Source: Siphonodentalium dalli (lineage: Eukaryota; Mollusca; Scaphopoda; Gadilida; Siphonodentaliidae). From it: a stretch of 64,000 bases of DNA. The stretch spans positions 1 through 64,000 of the forward strand of contig CP136064.1 of NCBI GenBank assembly GCA_032622095.1, given 5' to 3'. The translations under genes were made by a program, and so were the position numbers. This document shows positions 1 to 41,521 of the stretch, in pieces (the first letter of the stretch is position 1; every line of letters begins with the position of its first letter). The notes under the pieces were generated by a model. It was not told the DNA's origin and did no database searches. It was given only the letters and a program-made list of their open reading frames with translations.

Positions 1-3000
1 GATACCCCTTAAAGTTGGTGACTGTGTTACTTATGTCCCTTTAAGTTGAGATACATCTGTTCCTTTAAACATACATTTGCATTCCACCATGAAGATATAA
101 ATTTTCTGCAGTCATTGTAAATGACAACCCGATTCGGATATGGCCAGATTTGACATGGCGCGGTATGGAGAAACATGCGCCAAGTAGAAAATATCCAACC
201 GTACTCCACCATGGAACCATTCTAAATCAGACACCTCTTTAAGTTGGTGACTGTGTTACTTATGTCCCTTTAAGTTTGAGATACATCTGTTCCTTTAAAC
301 ATACATTTGCATTCCAACATGAAGATATATATTTTCTGCAGTCCATTGTAAATGACAACCCGATTCGGATATGGCCAGATTTGACATGGCGCGGTATGGA
401 GAAACATGCGCCAAATTGAAAATATCCAACCGTACTCCACCATGTAACCAGTCTATAGCAGATACCCCTTAAAGTTGGTGACGGTGTTACTTATGTCCCT
501 TTAAGTTGAGATACATCTGTTTCCTTTAAACATACATTTGCATTCCAACATGAAGATATATATTTTCTGCAGTCATTGTAAATGACAACCCGATTCGGAT
601 ATGGCCAGATTTGACATGGCGCGGTATGGAGAAACATGCGCCAAATAGAAAATATCCAACCGTACTCCACCATGGAACCAGTCTATAGCAGATACCCCTT
701 AAAGTTGGTGACGGTGTTACTTATGTCCCTTTAAGTTGAGATACATCTGTTCCTTTAAACATACATTTGCATTCCAACATGAAGATATTTATTTCTGTAG
801 TCATTGTAAATGACAACCCCGATTCGGATATGGCCAGATTTGACATGGCGCGGTATGGAGAAACATGCGCAAAATTGAAAATATCCAACCGTACTCCACC
901 ATGTAACCAGTCTATAGCAGATACCCCTTAAAGTTGGTGACTGTGTTACTTATGTCCCTTTAAGTTGAGATACATCTGTTTCTTTAAACATACATTTGCA
1001 TTCCAACATGAAGATATTTATTTTCTGTAGTCATTGTAAATGACAACGCCGATTCGGATATGGCCAGATTTGACATGACGCGGTAGGGAGAAACATGCGC
1101 CAAATTGAAAATATCCAACAGTACTCCACCATGGAACCAGTCTATAGCAGATACCCCTTAAGTTGGTGACGGTGTTACTTATGTCCCTTTAAGTTGAGAT
1201 ACATCTGTTCCTTTAAACATACATTTGCATTCCACCATGAAGATATATATTTTTCTGCAGTCATTGTAAATGACAACCCGATTCGGATATGGCCAGATTT
1301 GACATGGCGCGGTATGGAGAAACATGCGCCAAATTGAAAATATCCAACTGTACTCCACCATGGAACCAGTCTATAGCAGATACCCCTTAAAGTTGGTGAC
1401 TGTGTTACTTATGTCCCTTTAAGTTGAGATACATCTGTTTCCATTAAACATACATTTGCATTCCACCTTGAAGATATAAATTTTCTGCAGTCATTGTAAA
1501 TGACAACCCGATTCGGATATGGCCAGATTTGACATGGCGCGGTATGGAGAAACATGCGCCAAGTAGAAAATATCCAACCGTACTCCACCATGGAACCATT
1601 CTAAATCAGACACCTCTTTAAGTTGGTGACTGTGTTACTTATGTCCCTTTAAGTTGAGATACATCTGTTCCTTTAAACATACATTTGCATTCCAACATGA
1701 AGATATATATTTTCTGCAGTCATTGTAAATGACAACCCGATTCGGATATGGCCAGATTTGACATGGCGCGGTATGGAGAAACATGCGCCAAATTGAAAAT
1801 ATCCAACCGTACTCCACCATGGAACCAGTCTATAGCAGATACCCCTTTAAGTTGGTGACTGTGTTACTTATGTCCCTTTAAGTTGAGATACATCTGTTCC
1901 TTTAAACATACATTTGCATTCCAACATGAAGATATATATTTTTCTGCAGTCATTGTAAATGACAACCCGATTCGGATATGGCCAGATTTGACATGGCGCG
2001 GTATGGAGAAACATGCGCCAATTGAAAATATCCAACCGTACTCCACCATGGAACCAGTCTATAGCAGATACCCCTTTAAGTTGGTGACTGTGTTACTTAT
2101 GTCCCTTTAAGTTGAGATACATCTGTTCCTTTAAACATACATTTGCTTTCCAACATGAAGATATTTATTTTCTGTAGTCATTGTAAATGACAACCCGATT
2201 CGGATATGGCCAGATTTGACATGGCGCGGTATGGAAAAACATGCGCCAAATTGAAAATATCCAACCGTACTCCACCATGGAACCAGTCTATAGCAGATAC
2301 CCCTTAAAGTTGGTGACTGTGTTACTTATGTCTCTTTAAGTTGAGATACATCTGTTTCTTTAAACATACATTTGCATTCCAACATGAAGATATTTATTTT
2401 CTGTAGTCATTGTAAATGACAACCCGATTCGGATATGGCCAGATTTGACATGGCACGGTGTGGAGAAACATGCGCCAAATAGAAAATATCCAACCGTACT
2501 CCACCATGGAACCAGTCTATAGCAGATACCCCTTAAAGTTGGTGACTGTGTTACTTATGTCCCTTTAAGTTGAGATACATCTGTTCCTTTAAACATACAT
2601 TTGCATTCCAACATGAAGATATTTATTTTCTGTAGTCATTGTAAATGACAACCCGATTCGGATATGGCCAGATTTGACATGGCGCGGTAGGGAGAAACAT
2701 GCGCCAAATTGAAAATATCCAACAGTACTCCACCATGGAACCAGTCTATAGCAGATACCCCTTAAAGTTGGTGACTGTGTTACTTATGTCCCTTTAAGTT
2801 GAGATACATCTGTTTCTTTAAACATACATTTGCATTCCAACATGAAGATATTTATTTTCTGTAGTCATTGTAAATGACAACCCCGATTCGGATATGGCCA
2901 GATTTGACATGGCGCGGTATGGAGAAACATGCGCCAAATAGAAAATATCCAACCGTACTCCACCATGGAACCAGTCTATAGCAGATACCCCTTAAAGTTG

Positions 3001-4113
3001 GTAACTGTGTTACTTATGTCCCTTTAAGTTGAGATACATCTGTTCCTTTAAACATACATTTGCATTCCAACATGAAGATATTTATTTTCTGTAGTCATTG
3101 TAAATGACAACCCGATTCGGATATGGCCAGATTTGACATGGCGCGGAATGGAGAAACATGCGCCAAATAGAAAAATATCCAACCGTACTCCACCATGGAA
3201 CCAGTCTAAATCAGACACCTCTTTAAGTTGGTGACTGTGTTACTTATGTTCCTTTAAGTTGAGATACATCTGTTCCTTTAAACATACATTTGCATTCCAA
3301 CATGAAGATATTTATTTTCTGTAGTCATTGTAAATGACAACCCGATTCGGATATGGCCAGATTTGACATGGCGCGGTATGGAGAAACATGCGCAAAGTTG
3401 AAAATATCCAACCGTACTCCACCATGTAACCAGTCTATAGCAGATACCCCTTAAAGTTGGTGACGGTGTTACTTATGTCCCTTTAAGTTGAGATACATCT
3501 GTTCCTTTAAACATACATTTGCATTCCAACATGAAGATATATATTTTCTGCAGTCATTGTAAATGACAACCCGATTCGGATATGGCCAGATTTGACATGG
3601 CGCGGTATGGAGAAACATGCGCCAAATTGAAAATATCCAACCGTACTCCACCATGGAACCAGTCTATAGCAGATACCCCTTAAAGTTGGTGACTGTGTTA
3701 CTTATGTCCCTTTAAGTTGAGATACATCTGTTCCTTTAAACATACATTTGCATTCCAACATGAAGATATATATTTTCTGCAGTCATTGTAAATGACAACC
3801 CGATTCGGATATGGCCAGATTTGACATGGCGCGGTATGGAGAAACAAGCGCCAAATTGAAAATATCCAACCGTACTCCACCATGGGAACCAGTCTATAGC
3901 AGATACCCCTTAAAGTTGGTGACTGTGTTACTTATGTCCCTTTAAGTTGAGATACATCTGTTTCTTTAAACATACATTTGCATTCCACCATGAAGATATA
4001 TATTTTCTGCAGTCATTGTAAATGACAACCCGATTCGGATAGGGCCAGATTTGACATGACGCGGTATGGAGAAACATGCGCCAAATTGAAAATATCCAAC
4101 CGTACTCCACCAT
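1..4113 (-). repeat. Indel-rich left edge of the minus arm
   Basis: Monomer starts here drift from the 229-bp grid. From the minus ATG at 212 to that at 4113 is 3901 bp, eight more than 17 x 229. Visible one-base changes include an extra T in AAGTTTGAG (near 276), an extra C in AGTCCATTG (near 343), an extra T in the TTCCTTTAAAC run near 520, an extra C in ACAACCCCG (near 817), and a lost base in GCGCCAATTG (near 2019). From 4342 to 11212 the grid is exact (30 x 229). This stretch therefore looks like the oldest or least homogenised part of the window. Confidence 0.8.
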
Positions 4114-7100
4114 GGAACCAGTCTATATCAGACACCCCTTTAAGTTGGTGACTGTGTTACTTATGTCCCTTTAAGTTGAGATACATCTGTTCCTTTAAAC
4201 ATACATTTGCATTCCACCATGAAGATATATATTTTCTGCAGTCATTGTAAATGACAACCCGATTCGGATATGGCCAGATTTGACATGGCGCGGTATGGAG
4301 AAACATGCGCCAAATTGAAAATATCCAACCGTACTCCACCATGGAACCAGTCTATAGCAGATACCCCTTTAAGTTGGTGACTGTGTTGCTTATGTCCCTT
4401 TAAGTTGAGATACATCTGTTCCTTTAAACATACATTTGCATTCCAACATGAAGATATTTATTTTCTGTAGTCATTGTAAATGACAACCCGATTCGGATAT
4501 GGCCAGATTTGACATGGCGCGGTATGGAGAAACATGCGCCAAATTGAAAATATCCAACCGTACTCCACCATGGAACCAGTCTATAGCAGATACCCCTTAA
4601 AGTTGGTGACTGTGTTACTTATGTCCCTTTAAGTTGAGATACATCTGTTCCTTTAAACATACATTTGCATTCCAACATGAAGATATTTATTTTCTGTAGT
4701 CATTGTAAATGACAACCCGATTCGGATATGGCCAGATTTGACATGGCGCGGTATGGAGAAACATGCGCCAAATTGAAAATATCCAACAGTACTCCACCAT
4801 GGAACCAGTCTATAGCAGATACCCCTTAAAGTTGGTGACTGTGTTACTTATGTCCCTTTAAGTTGAGATACATCTGTTCCTTTAAACATACATTTGCATT
4901 CCAACATGAAGATATTTAATTTCTGTAGTCATTGTAAATGACAACCCGATTCGGATATGGCCAGATTTGACATGGCGCGGTATGGAGAAACATGCGCCAA
5001 ATAGAAAATATCCAACCGTACTCCACCATGGAACCAGTCTATAGCAGATACCCCTTAAAGTTGGTGACTGTGTTACTTATGTCCCTTTAAGTTGAGATAC
5101 ATCTGTTCCTCTAAACATACTTTTGCATTCCAACATGAAGATACTTATTTTCTGTAGTCATTGTAAATGACAACCCGATTCGGATATGGCCAGATTTGAC
5201 ATGGCGCGGTATGGAGAAACATGCGCCAAGTAGAAAATATCCAACCGTACTCCACCATGGAACCAGTCTAAATCAGACACCTCTTTAAGTTGGTGAATGT
5301 GTTACTTATGTCCCTTTAAGTTGAGATACATCTGTTCCTTTAAACATACATTTGCATTCCAACATGAAGATATTTATTTTCTGCAGTCATTGTAAATGAC
5401 AACCCGATTCGGATATGGCCAGATTTGACATGGCGCGGTATGGAGAAACATGCGCCAAATTGAAAATATCCAACCGTACTCCACCATGGAACCAGTCTAT
5501 AGCAGATACCCCTTAAAGTTGGTGACTGTGTTACTTATGTCCCTTTAAGTTGAGATACATCTGTTCCTTTAAACATACATTTGCAATCCACCATGAAGAT
5601 ATATATTTTCTGCAGTCATTGTAAATGACAACCCGATTCGGATAGGGCCAGATTTGACATGGCGCGGTATGGAGAAACATGCGCCAAATAGAAAATATCC
5701 AACCGTACTCCACCATGGAACCAGTCTATAGCAGATACCCCTTTAAGTTGGTGACTGTGTTACTTATGTCCCTTTAAGTTGAGATACATCTGTTCCTTTA
5801 AACATACATTTGCATTCCACCATGAAGATATATATTTTCTGCAGTCATTGTAAATGACAACCCGATTCGGATATGGCCAGATTTGACATGGCGCGGTATG
5901 GAGAAACATGCGCCAAATTGAAAATATCCAACCGTACTCCACCATGGAACCAGTCTATAGCAGATACCCCTTTAAGTTGGTAACTGTGTTACTTATGTCC
6001 CTTTAAGTTGAGATACATCTGTTCCTTTAAACATACATTTGCTTTCCAACATGAAGATATTTATTTTCTGTAGTCATTGTAAATGACAACCCGATTCGGA
6101 TATGGCCAGATTTGACATGGCGCGGTATGGAAAAACATGCGCCAAATTGAAAATATCCAACCGTACTCCACCATGGAACCAGTCTATAGCAGATACCCCT
6201 TAAAGTTGGTGACTGTGTTACTTATGTCCCTTTAAGTTGAGATACATCTGTTCCTTTAAACATACATTTGCATTCCAACATGAAGATATTTATTTTCTGT
6301 AGTCATTGTAAATGACAACCCGATTCGGATATGGCCAGATTTGACATGGCGCGGTATGGAGAAACATGCGCCAAATAGAAAATATCCAACCGTACTCCAC
6401 CATGGAACCAGTCTATAGCAGATACCCCTTAAAGTTGGTGACTGTGTTACTTATGTCCCTTTAAGTTGAGATACATCTGTTCCTTTAAACATACATTTGC
6501 ATTCCAACATGAAGATATTTATTTTCTGTAGTCATTGTAAATGACAACCCGATTTGGATATGGCCAGATTAGACATGGCGCGGTATGGAGAAACATGCGC
6601 CAAATAGAAAATATCCAACCGTACTCCACCATGGAACCAGTCTAAATCAGACACCTCTTTAAGTTGGTGACTGTGTTACTTATGTTCCTTTAAGTTGAGA
6701 TACATCTGTTCCTTTAAACATACATTTGCATTCCATAATGAAGATATATATTTTCTGCAGTCATTGTAAATGACAACCCGATTCGGATATGGCCAGATTT
6801 GACATGGCGCGGTATGGAGAAACATGCGCCAAATTGAAAATATCCAACCGTACTCCACCATGGAACCAGTCTATAGCAGATACCCCTTTAAGTTGGTGAC
6901 TGTGTTACTTATGTCCCTTTAAGTTGAGATACATCTGTTCCTTTAAACATACATTTGCTTTCCAACATGAAGATATTTATTTTCTGTAGTCATTGTAAAT
7001 GACAACCCGATTCGGATATGGCCAGATTTGACATGGCGCGGTATGGAAAAACATGCGCCAAATTGAAAATATCCAACCGTACTCCACCATGGAACCAGTC

Positions 7101-7591
7101 TATAGCAGATACCCCTTAAAGTTGGTGACTGTGTTACTTATGTCCCTTTAAGTTGAGATACATCTGTTCCTTTAAGCATACATTTGCATTCCAACATGAA
7201 GATATTTATTTTCTGTAGTCATTGTAAATGACAACCCGATTCGGATATGGCCAGATTTGACATGGCGCAGTATGGAGAAACATGCGCCAAATTGAAAATA
7301 TCCAACAGTACTCCACCATGGAACCAGTCTATAGCAGATACCCCTTAATGTTGGTGACTGTGTTACTTATGTTCCTTTAAGTTGAGATACATCTGTTTCT
7401 TTAAACATACATTTGCATTCCAACATGAAGATATTTATTTTCTGTAGTCATTGTAAATGACAACCCGATTCGGATATGGCCAGATTTGACATGGCGCGGT
7501 ATGGAGAAACATGCGCCAAATAGAAAATATCCAACCGTACTCCACCATGGAACCAGTCTATAGCAGATACCCCTTAAAGTTGGTGACTGTG

Positions 7592-8507
7592 TTACTTATG
7601 TCCCTTTAAGTTGAGATACATCTGTTCCTTTAAACATACATTTGCATTCCACCATGAAGATATATATTTTCTGCAGTCATTGTAAATGACAACCCGATTC
7701 GGATATGGCCAGATTTGACATGGCGCGGTATGGAGAAACATGCGCCAAGTAGAAAATATCCAACCGTACTCCACCATGGAACCATTCTAAATCAGACACC
7801 TCTTTAAGTTGGTGACTGTGTTACTTATGTCCCTTTAAGTTGAGATACATCTGTTCCTTTAAACATACATTTGCATTCCAACATGAAGATATTTATTTTC
7901 TGCAGTCATTGTAAATGACAACCCGATTCGGATATGGCCAGATTTGACATGGCGCGGTATGTAGAAACATGCGCAAAATTGAAAATATCCAACCGTACTC
8001 CACCATGTAACCACTCTATAGCAGATACCCCTTCAAGTTGGTGACGTTGTTACTTATGTCCCTTTAAGTTGAGATACATCTGTTCCTTTAAACATTCATT
8101 TGCATTCCACCATGAAGATATATATTTTCTGCAGTCATTGTAAATGACAACCCGATTCGGATATGGCCAGATTTGACATGGCGCGGTATGGAGAAACATG
8201 CGCCAAATTGAAAATATCCAACCGTACTCCACCATGTAACCAGTCTATAGCAGATACCCCTTAAAGTTGGTGACGGTGTTACTTATGTCCCTTTAAGTTG
8301 AGATACATCTGTTCCTTTAAACATACATTTGCATTCCAACATGAAGATATATATTTTCTGCAGTCATTGTAAATGACAACCCGATTCGGATATGGCCAGA
8401 TTTGACATGGCGCGGTATGGAGAAACATGCGCCAAATTGAAAATATCCAACCGTACTCCACCATGGAACCAGTCTATAGCAGATACCCCTTAAAGTTGGT
8501 GACTGTG
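7592..8507 (-). repeat. Minus-strand A-B-C-D monomer block, first copy
   Basis: Four monomers read on the minus strand as A (8279), B (8050), C (7821), D (7592). B carries its diagnostic changes: G126, A140, and CTTGAAGG at its 3' end. D carries CTACTTGG and the variant boundary with CTGATTTAGAATGG. The same four classes in the same order open each plus-arm HOR. The block recurs 2061 bp (9 x 229) to the right at 9653. Confidence 0.8.
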
Positions 8508-9652
8508 TTACTTATGTCCCTTTAAGTTGAGATACATCTGTTCCTTTAAACATATATTTGCATTCCACCATGAAGATATATATTTTCTGCAGTCATTGTA
8601 AATGACAACCCGATTCGGATAGGGCCAGATTTGACATGGCGCGGTATGGAGAAACATGCGCCAAATTGAAAATATCCAACCGTACTCCACCATGTAACCA
8701 GTCTATAGCAGATACCCCTTTAAGTTGGTGACTGTGTTACTTATGTCCCTTTAAGTTGAGATACATCTGTTCCTTTAAACATACATTTGCATTCCACCAT
8801 GAAGATATATATTTTCTGCAGTCATTGTAAATGACAACCCGATTCGGATATGGCCAGATTTGACATGGCGCGGTATGGAGAAACATGCGCCAAATTGAAA
8901 ATATCCAACAGTACTCCACCATGGAACCAGTCTATAGCAGATACCCCTTTAAGTTGGTGACTGTGTTACTTATGTCCCTTTAAGTTGAGATACATCTGTT
9001 CCTTTAAACATACATTTGCTTTCCAACATGAAGATATTTATTTTATGTAGTCATTGTAAATGACAACCCGATTCGGATATGGCCAGATTTGACATGGCGC
9101 GGTAGGGAGAAACATGCGCCAAATTGAAAATATCCAACAGTACTCCACCATGGAACCAGTCTATAGCAGATACCCCTTAAAGTTGGTGACTGTGTTACTT
9201 ATGTCCCTTTAAGTTGAGATACATCTGTTTCTTTAAACATACATTTGCATTCCAACATGAAGATATTTATTTTCTGTAGTCATTGTAAATGACAACCCGA
9301 TTCGGATATGGCCAGATTTGACATGACGCGGTAGGGAGAAACATGCGCCAAATTGAAAATATCCAACAGTACTCCACCATGGAACCAGTCTATAGCAGAT
9401 ACCCCTTAAAGTTGGTGACGGTGTTACTTATGTCCCTTTAAGTTGAGATACATCTGTTCCTTTAAACATACATTTGCATTCCACCATGAAGATATATATT
9501 TTCTGCAGTCATTGTAAATGACAACCCGATTCGGATATGGCCAGATTTGACATGGCGCGGTATGGAGAAACATGCGCCAAATTGAAAATATCCAACAGTA
9601 CTCCACCATGGAACCAGTCTATAGCAGATACCCCTTAAAGTTGGTGACTGTG

Positions 9653-10568
9653 TTACTTATGTCCCTTTAAGTTGAGATACATCTGTTCCTTTAAACATAC
9701 ATTTGCATTCCACCATGAAGATATATATTTTCTGCAGTCATTGTAAATGACAACCCGATTCGGATATGGCCAGATTTGACATGGCGCGGTATGGAGAAAC
9801 ATGCGCCAAGTAGAAAATATCCAACCGTACTCCACCATGGAACCATTCTAAATCAGACACCTCTTTAAGTTGGTGACTGTGTTACTTATGTCCCTTTAAG
9901 TTGAGATACATCTGTTCCTTTAAACATACATTTGCATTCCAACATGAAGATATTTATTTTCTGCAGTCATTGTAAATGACAACCCGATTCGGATATGGCC
10001 AGATTTGACATGGCGCGGTATGGAGAAACATGCGCAAAATTGAAAATATATAACCGTACTCCACCATGTAACCAGTCTATAGCAGATACCCCTTCAAGTT
10101 GGTGACGGTGTTACTTATGTCCCTTTAAGTTGAGATACATCTGTTCCTTTAAACATTCATTTGCATTCCACCATGAAGATATATATTTTCTGCAGTCATT
10201 GTAAATGACAACCCGATTCGGATATGGCCAGATTTGACATGGCGCGGTATGGAGAAACATGCGCCAAATTGAAAATATCCAACCGTACTCCACCATGTAA
10301 CCAGTCTATAGCAGATACCCCTTAAAGTTGGTGACGGTGTTACTTATGTCCCTTTAAGTTGAGATACATCTGTTCCTTTAAACATACATTTGCATTCCAA
10401 CATGAAGATATATATTTTCTGCAGTCATTGTAAATGACAACCCGATTCGGATATGGCCAGATTTGACATGGCGCGGTATGGAGAAACATGCGCCAAATTG
10501 AAAATATCCAACCGTACTCCACCATGGAACCAGTCTATAGCAGATACCCCTTAAAGTTGGTGACTGTG
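9653..10568 (-). repeat. Minus-strand A-B-C-D monomer block, second copy
   Basis: Monomers at 10340, 10111, 9882 and 9653 repeat those at 8279, 8050, 7821 and 7592 with exact 2061-bp spacing. Both B copies share an extra private change (ATTCATTTGC instead of ATACATTTGC on the plus strand). The two blocks are thus a recent nine-monomer tandem duplication inside the minus arm. Confidence 0.78.
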
Positions 10569-11421
10569 TTACTTATGTCCCTTTAAGTTGAGATACATCT
10601 GTTCCTTTAAACATACATTTGCATTCCAACATGAAGATATTTATTTTCTGTAGTCATTGTAAATGACAACCCGATTCGGATATGGCCAGATTTGACATGG
10701 CGCGGTAGGGAGAAACATGCGCCAAATTGAAAATATCCAACAGTACTCCACCATGGAACCAGTCTATAGCAGATACCCCTTAAAGTTGGTGACTGTGTTA
10801 CTTATGTCCCTTTAAGTTGAGATACATCTGTTTCTTTAAACATACATTTGCATTCCAACATGAAGATATTTATTTTCTGTAGTCATTGTAAATGACAACT
10901 CGATTCGGATATGGCCAGATTTGACATGGCGCGGTATGGAGAAACATGCGCCAAATAGAAAATATCCAACCGTACTCCACCATGGAACCAGTCTAAATCA
11001 GACACCTCTTTAAGTTGGTGACTGTGTTACTTATGTTCCTTTAAGTTGAGATACATCCGTTCCTTTAAACATACATTTGCACTGCAACATGAAGATATAT
11101 ATTTTCTGTAGTCATTGTAAATGACAACCCGATTCGGATATGGCCAGATTTGACATGGCGCGGTATGGAGAAACATGCGCAAAATTGAAAATATCCAACC
11201 GTACTCCACCATGTAACCAGTCTATAGCAGATACCCCTTAAAGTTGGTGACTGTGTTACTTATGTCCCTTTAAGTTGAGATACATCTGTTTCTTCAAACA
11301 TACATTTGCATTCCAACATGAAGATATTTATTTTCTGTAGTCATTGTAAATGACAACCCGATTCGGATATGGCCAGATTTGACATGGCGCGGTATGGAGA
11401 AACATGCGCCAAATAGAAAAT

Positions 11422-11434
11422 ATCCAACCGTACT
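11422..11434. repeat. 13-bp direct repeat, left of flipped fragment
   Basis: ATCCAACCGTACT lies immediately left of the plus-oriented fragment and is repeated exactly at 11985-11997 on its right. The match is exactly 13 bp: the flanking bases differ on both sides. Removing one copy together with the fragment (563 bp) leaves a minus monomer of exactly 229 bp (11213-11421 plus 11985-12004). This has the form of a target-site duplication or a filled-in staggered break. Confidence 0.85.
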
Positions 11435-11984
11435 TTAAGGGGTATCTGCTATAGACTGGTTCCATGGTGGAGTACGGTTGGATATTTTCCATTTGGCGCA
11501 TGTTTCTCCATACCGCGCCATGTCAAATCTGGCCATATCCGAATCAAGTTGTCATTTACAATGACTACAGAAAATAAATATCTTCATGTTGGAATGCAAA
11601 TGTATGTTTAAAGGAACAGATGTATCTCAACTTAAAGGGACATAAGTAACACAGTCACCAACTTTAAGGGGTATCTGCTATAGACTGGTTACATGGTGGA
11701 GTACGGTTGGATATTTTCAATTTTGCGCATGTTTCTCCATACCGCGCCATGTCAAATCTGGCCATATCCGAATCGGGTTGTCATTTACAATGACTACAGA
11801 AAATAAATATCTTCATGTTGGAATGCAAATGTATGTTTGAAGGAACAGATGTATCTCAACTTAAAGGGACATAAGTAACACAGTCACCAACTTTAAGGGG
11901 TATCTCCTATAGACTGGTTCCATGGTGGAGTACGGTTGGATATTTTCTATTTGGCGCATGTTTCTCCATACCGCGCCATGTCAA
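11435..11984 (+). repeat. 550-bp inverted satellite fragment inserted in a minus monomer
   Basis: The orientation is plus here while both neighbours are minus. It holds the 3' end of one monomer, a full K-like unit (ATG 11464; CCATTTGG; AATCAAGTTG at 83-84), a full F-like unit (ATG 11693; private TTTGAAGG and TATCTCCTATAG) and the first part of a G-like unit (ATG 11922). Bases 11435-11932 are the reverse complement of 12681-13178 with one mismatch, at 11436, sharing all those private variants. The last 52 bp differ from that source (CTATTTGG rather than CAATTTTG), so the donor may have been another copy or may have been converted later. It is a captured or template-switched fragment, not a transposon: it has no terminal repeats of its own and no coding capacity. 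Confidence 0.85.
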
Positions 11985-11997
11985 ATCCAACCGTACT
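11985..11997. repeat. 13-bp direct repeat, right of flipped fragment
   Basis: Second copy of ATCCAACCGTACT, identical to 11422-11434. Its first three bases (ATC) also match the plus-strand sequence that would follow the fragment, so the exact junction is ambiguous by 3 bp. On the left, ACT (11432-11434) is shared in the same way. Confidence 0.85.
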
Positions 11998-12680
11998 CCA
12001 CCATGGAACCAGTCTAAATCATACACCTCTTTAAGTTGGTGACTGTGTTACTTATGTTCCTTTAAGTTGAGATACATCCGTTCCTTTAAACATACATTTG
12101 CATTGCAACATGAAGATATATATTTTCTGTAGTCATTGTAAATGACAACCCGATTCGGATATGGCCAGATTTCACATGACGCGGTAGGGAGAAACATGCG
12201 CCAAATTGAAAATATCCAACAGTACTCCACCATGGAACCAGTCTATAGCAGATACCCCTTAAAGTTGGTGACGGTGTTACTTATGTCCCTTTAAGTTGAG
12301 ATACATCTGTTCCTTTAAACATACATTTGCATTCCAACATGAAGATATATATTTTCTGCAGTCATTGTAAATGACAACCCGATTCGGATATGGCCAGATT
12401 TGACATGGCGCGGTATGGAGAAACATGCGCCAAATTGAAAATATCCAACCGTACTCCACCATGGAACCAGTCTATAGCAGATACCCCTTAAAGTTGGTGA
12501 CTGTGTTACTTATGTCCCTTTAAGTTGAGATACATCTGTTTCTTCAAACATACATTTGCATTCCAACATGAAGATATTTATTTTCTGTAGTCATTGTAAA
12601 TGACAACCCGATTCGGATATGGCCAGATTTGACATGGCGCGGTATGGAGAAACATGCGCAAAATTGAAAATATCCAACCA

Positions 12681-13178
12681 TACTCCACCATGGAACCAGT
12701 CTATAGGAGATACCCCTTAAAGTTGGTGACTGTGTTACTTATGTCCCTTTAAGTTGAGATACATCTGTTCCTTCAAACATACATTTGCATTCCAACATGA
12801 AGATATTTATTTTCTGTAGTCATTGTAAATGACAACCCGATTCGGATATGGCCAGATTTGACATGGCGCGGTATGGAGAAACATGCGCAAAATTGAAAAT
12901 ATCCAACCGTACTCCACCATGTAACCAGTCTATAGCAGATACCCCTTAAAGTTGGTGACTGTGTTACTTATGTCCCTTTAAGTTGAGATACATCTGTTCC
13001 TTTAAACATACATTTGCATTCCAACATGAAGATATTTATTTTCTGTAGTCATTGTAAATGACAACTTGATTCGGATATGGCCAGATTTGACATGGCGCGG
13101 TATGGAGAAACATGCGCCAAATGGAAAATATCCAACCGTACTCCACCATGGAACCAGTCTATAGCAGATACCCCTTTA
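12681..13178 (-). repeat. Right arm of a 498-bp near-perfect inverted repeat
   Basis: Coordinates map onto the flipped fragment as 24613 minus x. The K-like unit (minus ATG 13149) and F-like unit (minus ATG 12920) are base-for-base the reverse complement of 11464-11921. This includes rare variants: CAACTTGATT at about 13064, CCTTCAAAC near 12771, and CTATAGGAGATACC near 12702. Only one mismatch is seen across the arm. The arms are separated by about 750 bp, so the region could fold back. Confidence 0.85.
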
Positions 13179-13461
13179 AGTTGGTGACTGTGTTACTTAT
13201 GTCCCTTTAAGTTGAGATACATCTGTTCCTTTAAACATACATTTGCATTCCACCATGAAGATATATATTTTCTGCAGTCATTGTAAATGACAACCCGATT
13301 CGGATATGGCCAGATTTGACATGGCGCGGTATGGAGAAACATGCGCCAAATTGAAAATATCCAACAGTACTCCACCATGGAACCAGTCTATAGCAGATAC
13401 CCCTTTAAGTTGGTGACTGTGTTACTTATGTCCCTTTAAGTTGAGATACATCTGTTCCTTT

Positions 13462-13464
13462 AAA
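13462..13464. other. Minus-to-plus orientation switch with AAA overlap
   Basis: Minus sequence CTGTTCCTTTAAA (normally followed by CATAC) joins plus sequence AAATAAATATC (normally preceded by CAGA). AAA fits both sides. Minus monomer position about 144 meets plus position about 112, so both monomers are broken internally. The flanks are not mirror images, so this is not a simple local foldback. All sequence to the right stays plus-oriented. Confidence 0.85.
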
Positions 13465-39002: not shown

Positions 39003-41521
39003 ATGGTGGAGTACGGTTGGATATTTTCTATTTGGCGCATGTTTCTCCATACCGCGCCATGTCAAATCTGGCCATATCCGAATCGGGTTGTCATTTACAA
39101 TGACTGCAGAAAATATATATCTTCATGTTGGAATGCAAATGTATGTTTAAAGGAACAGATGTATCTCAACTTAAAGGGACATAAGTAACACCGTCACCAA
39201 CTTTAAGGGGTATCTGCTATAGACTGGTTACATGGTGGAGTACGGTTGGATATTTTCAATTTGGCGCATGTTTCTCCATACCGCGCCATGTCAAATCTGG
39301 CCATATCCGAATCGGGTTGTCATTTACAATGACTGCAGAAAATATATATCTTCATGGTGGAATGCAAATGAATGTTTAAAGGAACAGATGTATCTCAACT
39401 TAAAGGGACATAAGTAACACCGTCACCAACTTGAAGGGGTATCTGCTATAGACTGGTTACATGGTGGAGTACGGTTGGATATTTTCAATTTTGCGCATGT
39501 TTCTCCATACCGCGCCATGTCAAATCTGGCCATATCCGAATCGGGTTGTCATTTACAATGACTGCAGAAAATAAATATCTTCATGTTGGAATGCAAATGT
39601 ATGTTTAAAGGAATAGATGTATCTCAACTTAAAGGGACATAAGTAACACAGTCACCAACTTAAAGAGGTGTCTGATTTAGAATGGTTCCATGGTGGAGTA
39701 CGGTTGGATATTTTCTACTTGGCGCATGTTTCTCCATACCGCGCCATGTCAAATCTGGCCATATCCGAATCGGGTTGTCATTTACAATGACTGCAGAAAA
39801 TATATATCTTCATGGTGGAATGCAAATGTATGTTTAAAGGAACAGATGTATCTCAACTTAAAGGGACATAAGTAACACAGTCACCAACTTTAAGGGGTAT
39901 CTGCTATAGACTGGTTCCATGGTGGAGTACGGTTGGATATTTTCAATTTGGCGCATGTTTCTCCATACCGCGCCATGTCAAATCTGGCCATATCCGAATC
40001 GGGTTGTCATTTACAATGACTGCAGAAAATATATATCTTCATGTTGGAATGCAAATGTATGTTTAAAGGAACAGATGTATCTCAACTTAAAGGGACATAA
40101 GTAACACCGTCACCAACTTTAAGGGGTATCTGCTATAGACTGGTTACATGGTGGAGTACGGTTGGATATTTTCAATTTTGCGCATGTTTCTCCATACCGC
40201 GCCATGTCAAATCTGGCCATATCCGAATCGGGTTGTCATTTACAATGACTACAGAAAATAAATATCTTCATGTTGGAATGCAAATGTATGTTTAAAGGAA
40301 CAGATGTAACTCAACTTAAAGGAACATAAGTAACACAGTCACCAACTTAAAGAGGTGTCTGATTTAGACTGGTTCCATGGTGGAGTACGGTTGGATATTT
40401 TCTATTTGGCGCATGTTTCTCCATACCGCGCCATGTCAAATCTGGCCATATCCGAATCGGGTTGTCATTTACAATGACTACAGAAAATAAATATCTTCAT
40501 GTTGGAATGCAAATGTATGTTTAAAGGAACAGATGTATCTCAACTTAAAGGGACATAAGTAACACAGTTACCAACTTTAAGGGGTATCTGCTATAGACTG
40601 GTTCCATGGTGGAGTACGGTTGGATATTTTCTATTTGGCGCATGTTTCTCCATACCGCGCCATGTCAAATCTGGCCATATCCGAATCGGGTTGTCATTTA
40701 CAATGACTACAGAAAATAAATATCTTCATGTTGGAATGCAAATGTATGTTTAAAGAAACAGATGTATCTCAACTTAAAGGGACATAAGTAACACAGTCAC
40801 CAACTTTAAGGGGTATCTGCTATAGACTGGTTCCATGGTGGAGTACTGTTGGATATTTTCAATTTGGCGCATGTTTCTCCCTACCGCGCCATGTCAAATC
40901 TGGCCATATCCGAATCGGGTTGTCATTTACAATGACTACAGAAAATAAATATCTTCATGTTGGAATGCAAATGTATGTTTAAAGGAACAGATGTATCTCA
41001 ACTTAAAGGGACATAAGTAACACAGTCACCAACTTTAAGGGGTATCTGCTATAGACTGGTTCCATGGTGGAGTACGGTTGGATATTTTCAATTTGGCGCA
41101 TGTTTTTCCATACCGCGCCATGTCAAATCTGGCCATATCCGAATCGGGTTGTCATTTACAATGACTACAGAAAATAAATATCTTCATGTTGGAAAGCAAA
41201 TGTATGTTTAAAGGAACAGATGTATCTCAACTTAAAGGGACATAAGTAACACAGTCACCAACTTAAAGGGGTATCTGCTATAGACTGGTTCCATGGTGGA
41301 GTACGGTTGGATATTTTCCATTTGGCGCATGTTTCTCCATACCGCGCCATGTCAAATCTGGCCATATCCGAATCGGGTTGTCATTTACAATGACTACAGA
41401 AAATAAATATCTTCATGTTGGAATGCAAATGTATGTTTAAAGGAACAGATGTATCTCAACTTAAAGGGACATAAGTAACACAGTCACCAACTTTAAGGGG
41501 TATCTGCTATAGACTGGTTCC
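39003..41521 (+). repeat. 11-mer HOR copy 1 of the homogeneous array
   Basis: A 39003, B 39232, C 39461, D 39690, E 39919, F 40148, G 40377, H 40606, I 40835, J 41064, K 41293. First copy of the regular series; preceded by an E-K 7-mer. Same diagnostic bases as the reference copy. Confidence 0.9.

Follow-up and report, generated by a model that had tools for sequence, protein, structure and literature searches.

The window, that is, the whole stretch of DNA analyzed here, comprised bases 1-64000 of contig C4 (299.2 Mb), and the tandem repeat finder showed that a 229-bp satellite filled all 64000 bases. The satellite changed orientation at junctions J1, J2, and J3, which separate a long minus arm, a short flipped fragment, a second stretch of minus satellite, and a long plus arm (blocks A to D in Table 1). 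The minus arms were more mixed than the higher-order-repeat part of block D, in which near-identical copies of the 2519-bp unit gave equivalent match starts at 41032, 43551, 46070, 48589, and 51108. For comparison with the array at large, we examined a sample of 326.5 kb of C4 (1-254000, 454001-514000, and 614001-626500, with the window included); the last two segments were picked for near matches, and the sample leaves out C4:254-454 kb and C4:514-614 kb. Pattern searches of the whole genome covered 2.227 Gb in 9 contigs at a threshold of at most 3 mismatches, and the repeat counts obtained from them are lower bounds. The satellite was also present near the other end of the contig (C4:296297792-296300820), and, because all of the matches listed among the scored candidates of the genome were on C4, it may be subterminal and chromosome specific. 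Non-satellite inserts of ~2.2 kb (C4:110319-112498) and ~3.3 kb (C4:239146-242493) break the array.

Table 1. Satellite blocks, junctions, and repeats at the flipped fragment, in window coordinates
Feature	Position	Strand	Remarks
Block A, left flank, minus arm of the 229-bp satellite	1-11434	-	Tandem repeat finder and orientation map
Left direct-repeat copy, ATCCAACCGTACT	11422-11434	+	Exact; monomer phases 197-209
J1, minus to plus	11432-11434	.	3-bp microhomology ACT
Block B, flipped satellite fragment	11432-11987	+	556 bp = 2x229+98; monomer phases 19 down to 151
Fragment interior, 496 bp	11437-11932	+	Exact reverse complement of 12681-13176
J2, plus to minus	11985-11987	.	3-bp microhomology ATC
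Right direct-repeat copy, ATCCAACCGTACT	11985-11997	+	Exact
Block C, right flank, 1480 bp	11985-13464	-	Tandem repeat finder and orientation map
Inverted partner (within block C)	12626-13181	-	4/556 mismatches, 3 of the 4 in the last 55 bp of the fragment (J2 end)
J3, minus to plus	13462-13464	.	3-bp microhomology AAA; at least 1 place in the genome (pattern search)
Block D, plus arm	13462-64000	+	Contains an 11-monomer higher-order repeat (2519 bp) in part of its length

A satellite fragment is inverted in its own array at this site, with 3 bp of microhomology at both junctions and 13 bp of the flank present twice. The fragment is 556 bp long when the microhomologies at both ends are counted and 550 bp without them. 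As the earlier note had stated, an exact 13-bp direct repeat lies on both sides of it, and removal of the fragment together with one copy of the repeat brings back the 229-bp register: the landmark spacing across the insert was 792 bp, and all four landmark motifs across the site showed a spacing of 229 bp once 563 bp (550 + 13) had been subtracted. A simple in-place inversion was excluded because 792 bp does not divide into whole monomers of 229 bp. The same note had described the fragment as the only short plus-oriented piece in the minus arm, which is correct for the minus arm of the window but not for the array, where other flipped blocks exist. It had also taken the 13-bp repeat as the signature of a staggered break, and here we reached a different view: no staggered break is needed, and the repeat alone is weak evidence, because it is ordinary monomer sequence and breakpoints at random phases would give an overlap of 1 to 13 bp with a probability of 13/229 (~6%). 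The flanks of a site in a tandem array share phase; therefore, any pair of breakpoints leaves an overlap or a gap modulo 229. When the joined flanks were compared with other intact units, the best match had 1 mismatch in 230, and 137 of 250 random joins were equal or better; with the observed right flank kept fixed, 11 of 120 random left halves were equal or better. Since random joins often fit as well, an in-register insertion is supported, not proven. The contiguity of the flanks in the higher-order repeat was likewise dropped as strong proof of a clean insertion, as the random-join control leaves it modest weight.

The fragment has an inverted partner, which begins 639 bp beyond it. Against the reverse complement of 12626-13181, 552 of the 556 bases of the fragment were alike, and its inner part was identical throughout (496/496); the next best match to this inner part in the 326.5 kb of C4 had 9 mismatches, and there was no other exact match. 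The partner also ranked first among the scored candidates of the whole-genome search, which found two further places at 98%, these counts being lower bounds. Near-exact matches are common in the array: in control comparisons, 31 of 99 minus-arm windows matched somewhere in the window with at most 4 mismatches, and an exact match in the window was found for 34 of 50 plus-arm windows. Identity alone is for this reason no proof of source, and the argument is carried by private variants. Among 1388 units, variant 3G was present in just two, which belong to the fragment and the partner, respectively. Judged by these likenesses, the fragment is apparently copied from, or converted with, its inverted neighbor in block C. 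Because the 79 bp at the J2 end and position 11436 differ from block C, that block cannot have templated the whole fragment without later changes, and its candidacy as the plain template of the entire fragment was weakened by the finding that the ends of the fragment match a second locus.

This second locus lies ~608 kb from the site in the window, on the same contig. In the pattern searches (at most 3 mismatches), J1 was found at no fewer than two places in the genome, 11419-11447 and C4:620016-620044, and J2 also had at least two, 11971-11999 and C4:619089-619117. The satellite at the second locus ran minus to 618698, plus at 618688-619105, minus at 619103-620031, and plus from 620029. Its order is reciprocal to that of the window, namely, J2, 929 bp of minus satellite, and J1, and the 929 bp (4x229+13) extend from phase 197 to phase 209. 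Around J1, the two loci were identical over 220 bp on the left and 27 bp on the right; around J2, they were identical over 188 bp on the right and 78-79 bp on the left, which is the fragment side and includes 190A. Variant 5T beside J2 occurred only in the units of these two loci (2/1388 units), and the 15T of the fragment beside J1 resembled the second locus. From these shared sequences, J1 and J2 are taken to be common to both loci by descent. A one-off insertion does not predict the two junctions again at C4:619-620 kb in reciprocal order, and we instead regard the structure as inherited and propagated. The fragment itself was a mosaic, with ends like the second locus and an interior like block C, which fits conversion between inverted neighbors or direct templating by block C followed by small changes. 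Unit 12020 (12020-12246), with a 5T-62C-88G-103A head and a 156C-162A-170G-204A tail, resembles a fusion of two second-locus units (C4:619138-619593) by a 229-bp deletion, a visible step of unequal exchange.

In total, 17 orientation switches of 11 kinds were found in the 326.5 kb of C4. In this sample, J1, J2, K1, M1, and M2 occurred twice each, N1 occurred once more as its reverse complement, and J3, J4, K2, N2, and M5 occurred once each. The microhomology was 3 bp at J1, J2, J3, and K2, 5 bp at K1, 7-8 bp at J4, 2 bp at M2, and 0 bp at N2 and M1, and filler bases were present at N1 (one) and M5 (about five); the J4 and M5 junctions were read by hand from alignments. Microhomology of at least 3 bp was found at 6 of the 11 distinct junctions, compared with 6% expected at random satellite junctions (binomial P, ~2e-5), and at 5 of 10 when J4 was left out (P = 1.6e-4). 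Not all of the switches fit one mechanism, since N1, N2, M1, and M5 have no microhomology or carry filler bases. Under random placement, the occurrence of three switches within ~2 kb at the fragment had a P value of 0.04 for 14 switches and 0.01 for 9. Short direct repeats were observed at 4 of 14 bounded blocks in the sample: the 13 bp described here, an exact 14 bp at M4-M5, 27 bp with one mismatch at N1-N2, and 2 bp at J4-J2 of the second locus. The other 10 blocks had no short repeat. With 1.65 expected (P = 0.07, or P = 0.06 when the copied block M3-M4 is left out), the data do not establish short duplications as a rule, and the stronger-looking proportion among plus-in-minus blocks (4/7) comes from a post hoc selection.

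Two further features accompanied the switches elsewhere in the sample. N1 (C4:222503) and its reverse complement N3 (C4:243262) were identical for 994 bp on one side of the junction and 770 bp on the other and form a large inverted duplication with a switch inside. One copy of a duplicated minus block contained a ~6.6-kb non-satellite insert (C4:494434-501045), which accounts for the difference in length between block M3-M4 and its copy M1-M2; three open reading frames of this insert were scanned, and one matched a reverse transcriptase (Pfam RVT_1), one matched a HeH/LEM domain, and one had no match.

We consider it moderately probable that the inverted insertion arose by a microhomology-mediated template switch and that ordinary satellite exchange and conversion subsequently propagated and altered it. 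In this scheme, a growing end that was copying the minus array, in replication or in the repair of a break, would have reached phase 209, used ACT to pair with satellite of the opposite orientation, synthesized ~550 bp of inverted sequence, and used ATC to return to the minus array 13 bp behind its point of departure. Such an event would be template switching of the MMBIR/FoSTeS type; in terms of the four-point model, point 4 would precede point 1. The 13-bp repeat would then record how far the returning end stepped back rather than the filling of a staggered cut. Block C may have served as the template of the interior at the outset, or gene conversion with that block may have overwritten the interior, and the junction pair would later have been copied or moved between the loci by satellite exchange, whether through unequal crossover, break-induced replication, or a circle. 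Two features looked for in template switching were found here, an inverted copy of a nearby template, a likeness that later conversion could also give, and microhomology at the junctions. However, an end-joined fragment with microhomology would look much alike, matches at this identity are common in the array, and not every switch junction has microhomology. Furthermore, copying 556 bp at a distance of 639 bp exceeds the range of the tool in PMC8421209, which, according to the available portion of that paper, is limited to templates at most 100 bp away and to inserts that fit within one sequencing read.

Capture of the fragment at a staggered double-strand break, by fill-in of 13-nt overhangs and microhomology-mediated end joining, would produce the direct repeat, the 3-bp microhomology at both ends, and the exact register of the flanks, and the short repeats at M4-M5 and N1-N2 are consistent with it. 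This origin is conceivable but rather unlikely in our judgment, as a random fragment would not need an interior identical to its inverted neighbor and short repeats were found at just 4 of the 14 bounded blocks, which is not far above the chance expectation (P = 0.07). Nor is there a fixed cut spacing, because the repeat lengths (13, 14, 27, and 2) differ. These varying duplication lengths also led us to reject a transposon insertion, together with the lack of element ends (TIR, LTR, or poly-A); the insert is satellite from end to end, and on this point we agree with the earlier note. Its reading of a captured fragment or a circle is only partly right. The event does resemble an insertion, its flanks are in register, and the insert is all satellite, but neither a fragment from far away nor a plain satellite circle was supported as the source. 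Within the 326.5 kb of C4, the interior was identical only to the neighbor, which speaks against the far-away fragment, and the plain circle was rejected because 556 bp is 2.43 monomers, not a whole number, and the fragment is collinear with its partner, not circularly permuted.

A circle of mixed orientation (~550 bp plus and 929 bp minus, 1479 bp) that integrated by homologous recombination at both loci is a more elaborate proposal, and we regard it as improbable. It would give J1-plus-J2 in the minus array here and J2-minus-J1 in the plus array at C4:619-620 kb, the exact register would be automatic, and the two loci do hold complementary parts with both junctions in cyclic order, with 929 bp equal to 4x229+13. 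On the other hand, the plus-side identity ends fast, 27 bp after J1 and 78 bp before J2, another switch bounds the left plus piece of the second locus after just 418 bp, and tandem duplication by unequal exchange would yield the same order without a circle. The broader idea that a compound unit of ~1479 bp (550 plus, 929 minus) moves or amplifies as a whole, for example, as a circle, and seeds switches in arms of either direction has, in our estimate, an equally small chance of being right; if true, the geometry of the unit would yield the exact register and the 13-bp repeat as by-products. We give slightly less credence to gene conversion in a pre-existing inverted pair, by which the fragment would be old, its likeness to block C would stem from conversion, and the neighbor would be silent on its origin. 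The match of the fragment ends to the second locus (~79 bp at J2 and 15T at J1) and the exact match of the interior to block C argue for such conversion, but the end differences from block C amount to 4 bases, and these could be later changes because one of them (205A, on the block C side) is private to its unit and the remaining ones are widespread in the satellite. Finally, the orientation changes could be mis-joins of the assembly within a repeat. Satellite arrays are error-prone, read-level foldback artifacts are known, and the structure was read from the assembled sequence alone; nevertheless, an assembly error is very unlikely, since both junctions recur base for base at a second, differently arranged locus ~608 kb away and the fragment differs from its partner at 4 sites.

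Overall, the fragment is real and informative, an unusually readable case of known kinds of process. Following a change of direction in an array base by base is hard because most arrays are too uniform for a piece to be traced to its source. Here, the private variants, the exact junctions, and the second copy of the junction pair separate the steps from one another: a switch at microhomology, a short back-step, a later exchange, and conversion. The case suggests an origin of orientation switches in copying errors and their later spread through turnover of the array itself. Our literature search, which covered subscription journals thinly and so leaves absence unproven, returned no small in-register flipped satellite fragment with a reciprocally recurring junction pair.

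The closest parallels come from other satellites and from template switching. The satellites of Tribolium madens (PMC13081366) likewise form arrays that change orientation, with macro-dyad symmetries and with switch junctions copied many times in the genome. According to the accessible part of that study, a few conserved inversion sites are present there in thousands of copies, whereas the junctions described here occur once or twice in 326.5 kb, and that part reports no small flipped fragment with a direct repeat. In the hemicentric CentC inversion of maize centromere 10, a satellite array was also split and inverted through microhomology, as summarized in the review PMC8997354; that rearrangement is larger, and the portion of the review at hand mentions no small in-register insertion, but it does record that break-induced replication and microhomology-based repair have already been proposed for satellite arrays. 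The four-point model of short-range template switching, as set out in the available text of PMC7954356, likewise involves an inverted copy of a nearby template and a return to the original strand. Our case differs from it in that a 556-bp stretch lies in a tandem array and the empty site is deduced from the repeat register, not read from an ancestral sequence. The MMBIR templated insertions in the accessible text of PMC8421209 are similarly inverted copies of nearby templates flanked by a few bases of microhomology, with an average of 3.7 bp in one set, and the microhomology lengths observed here fit insertions of this kind.
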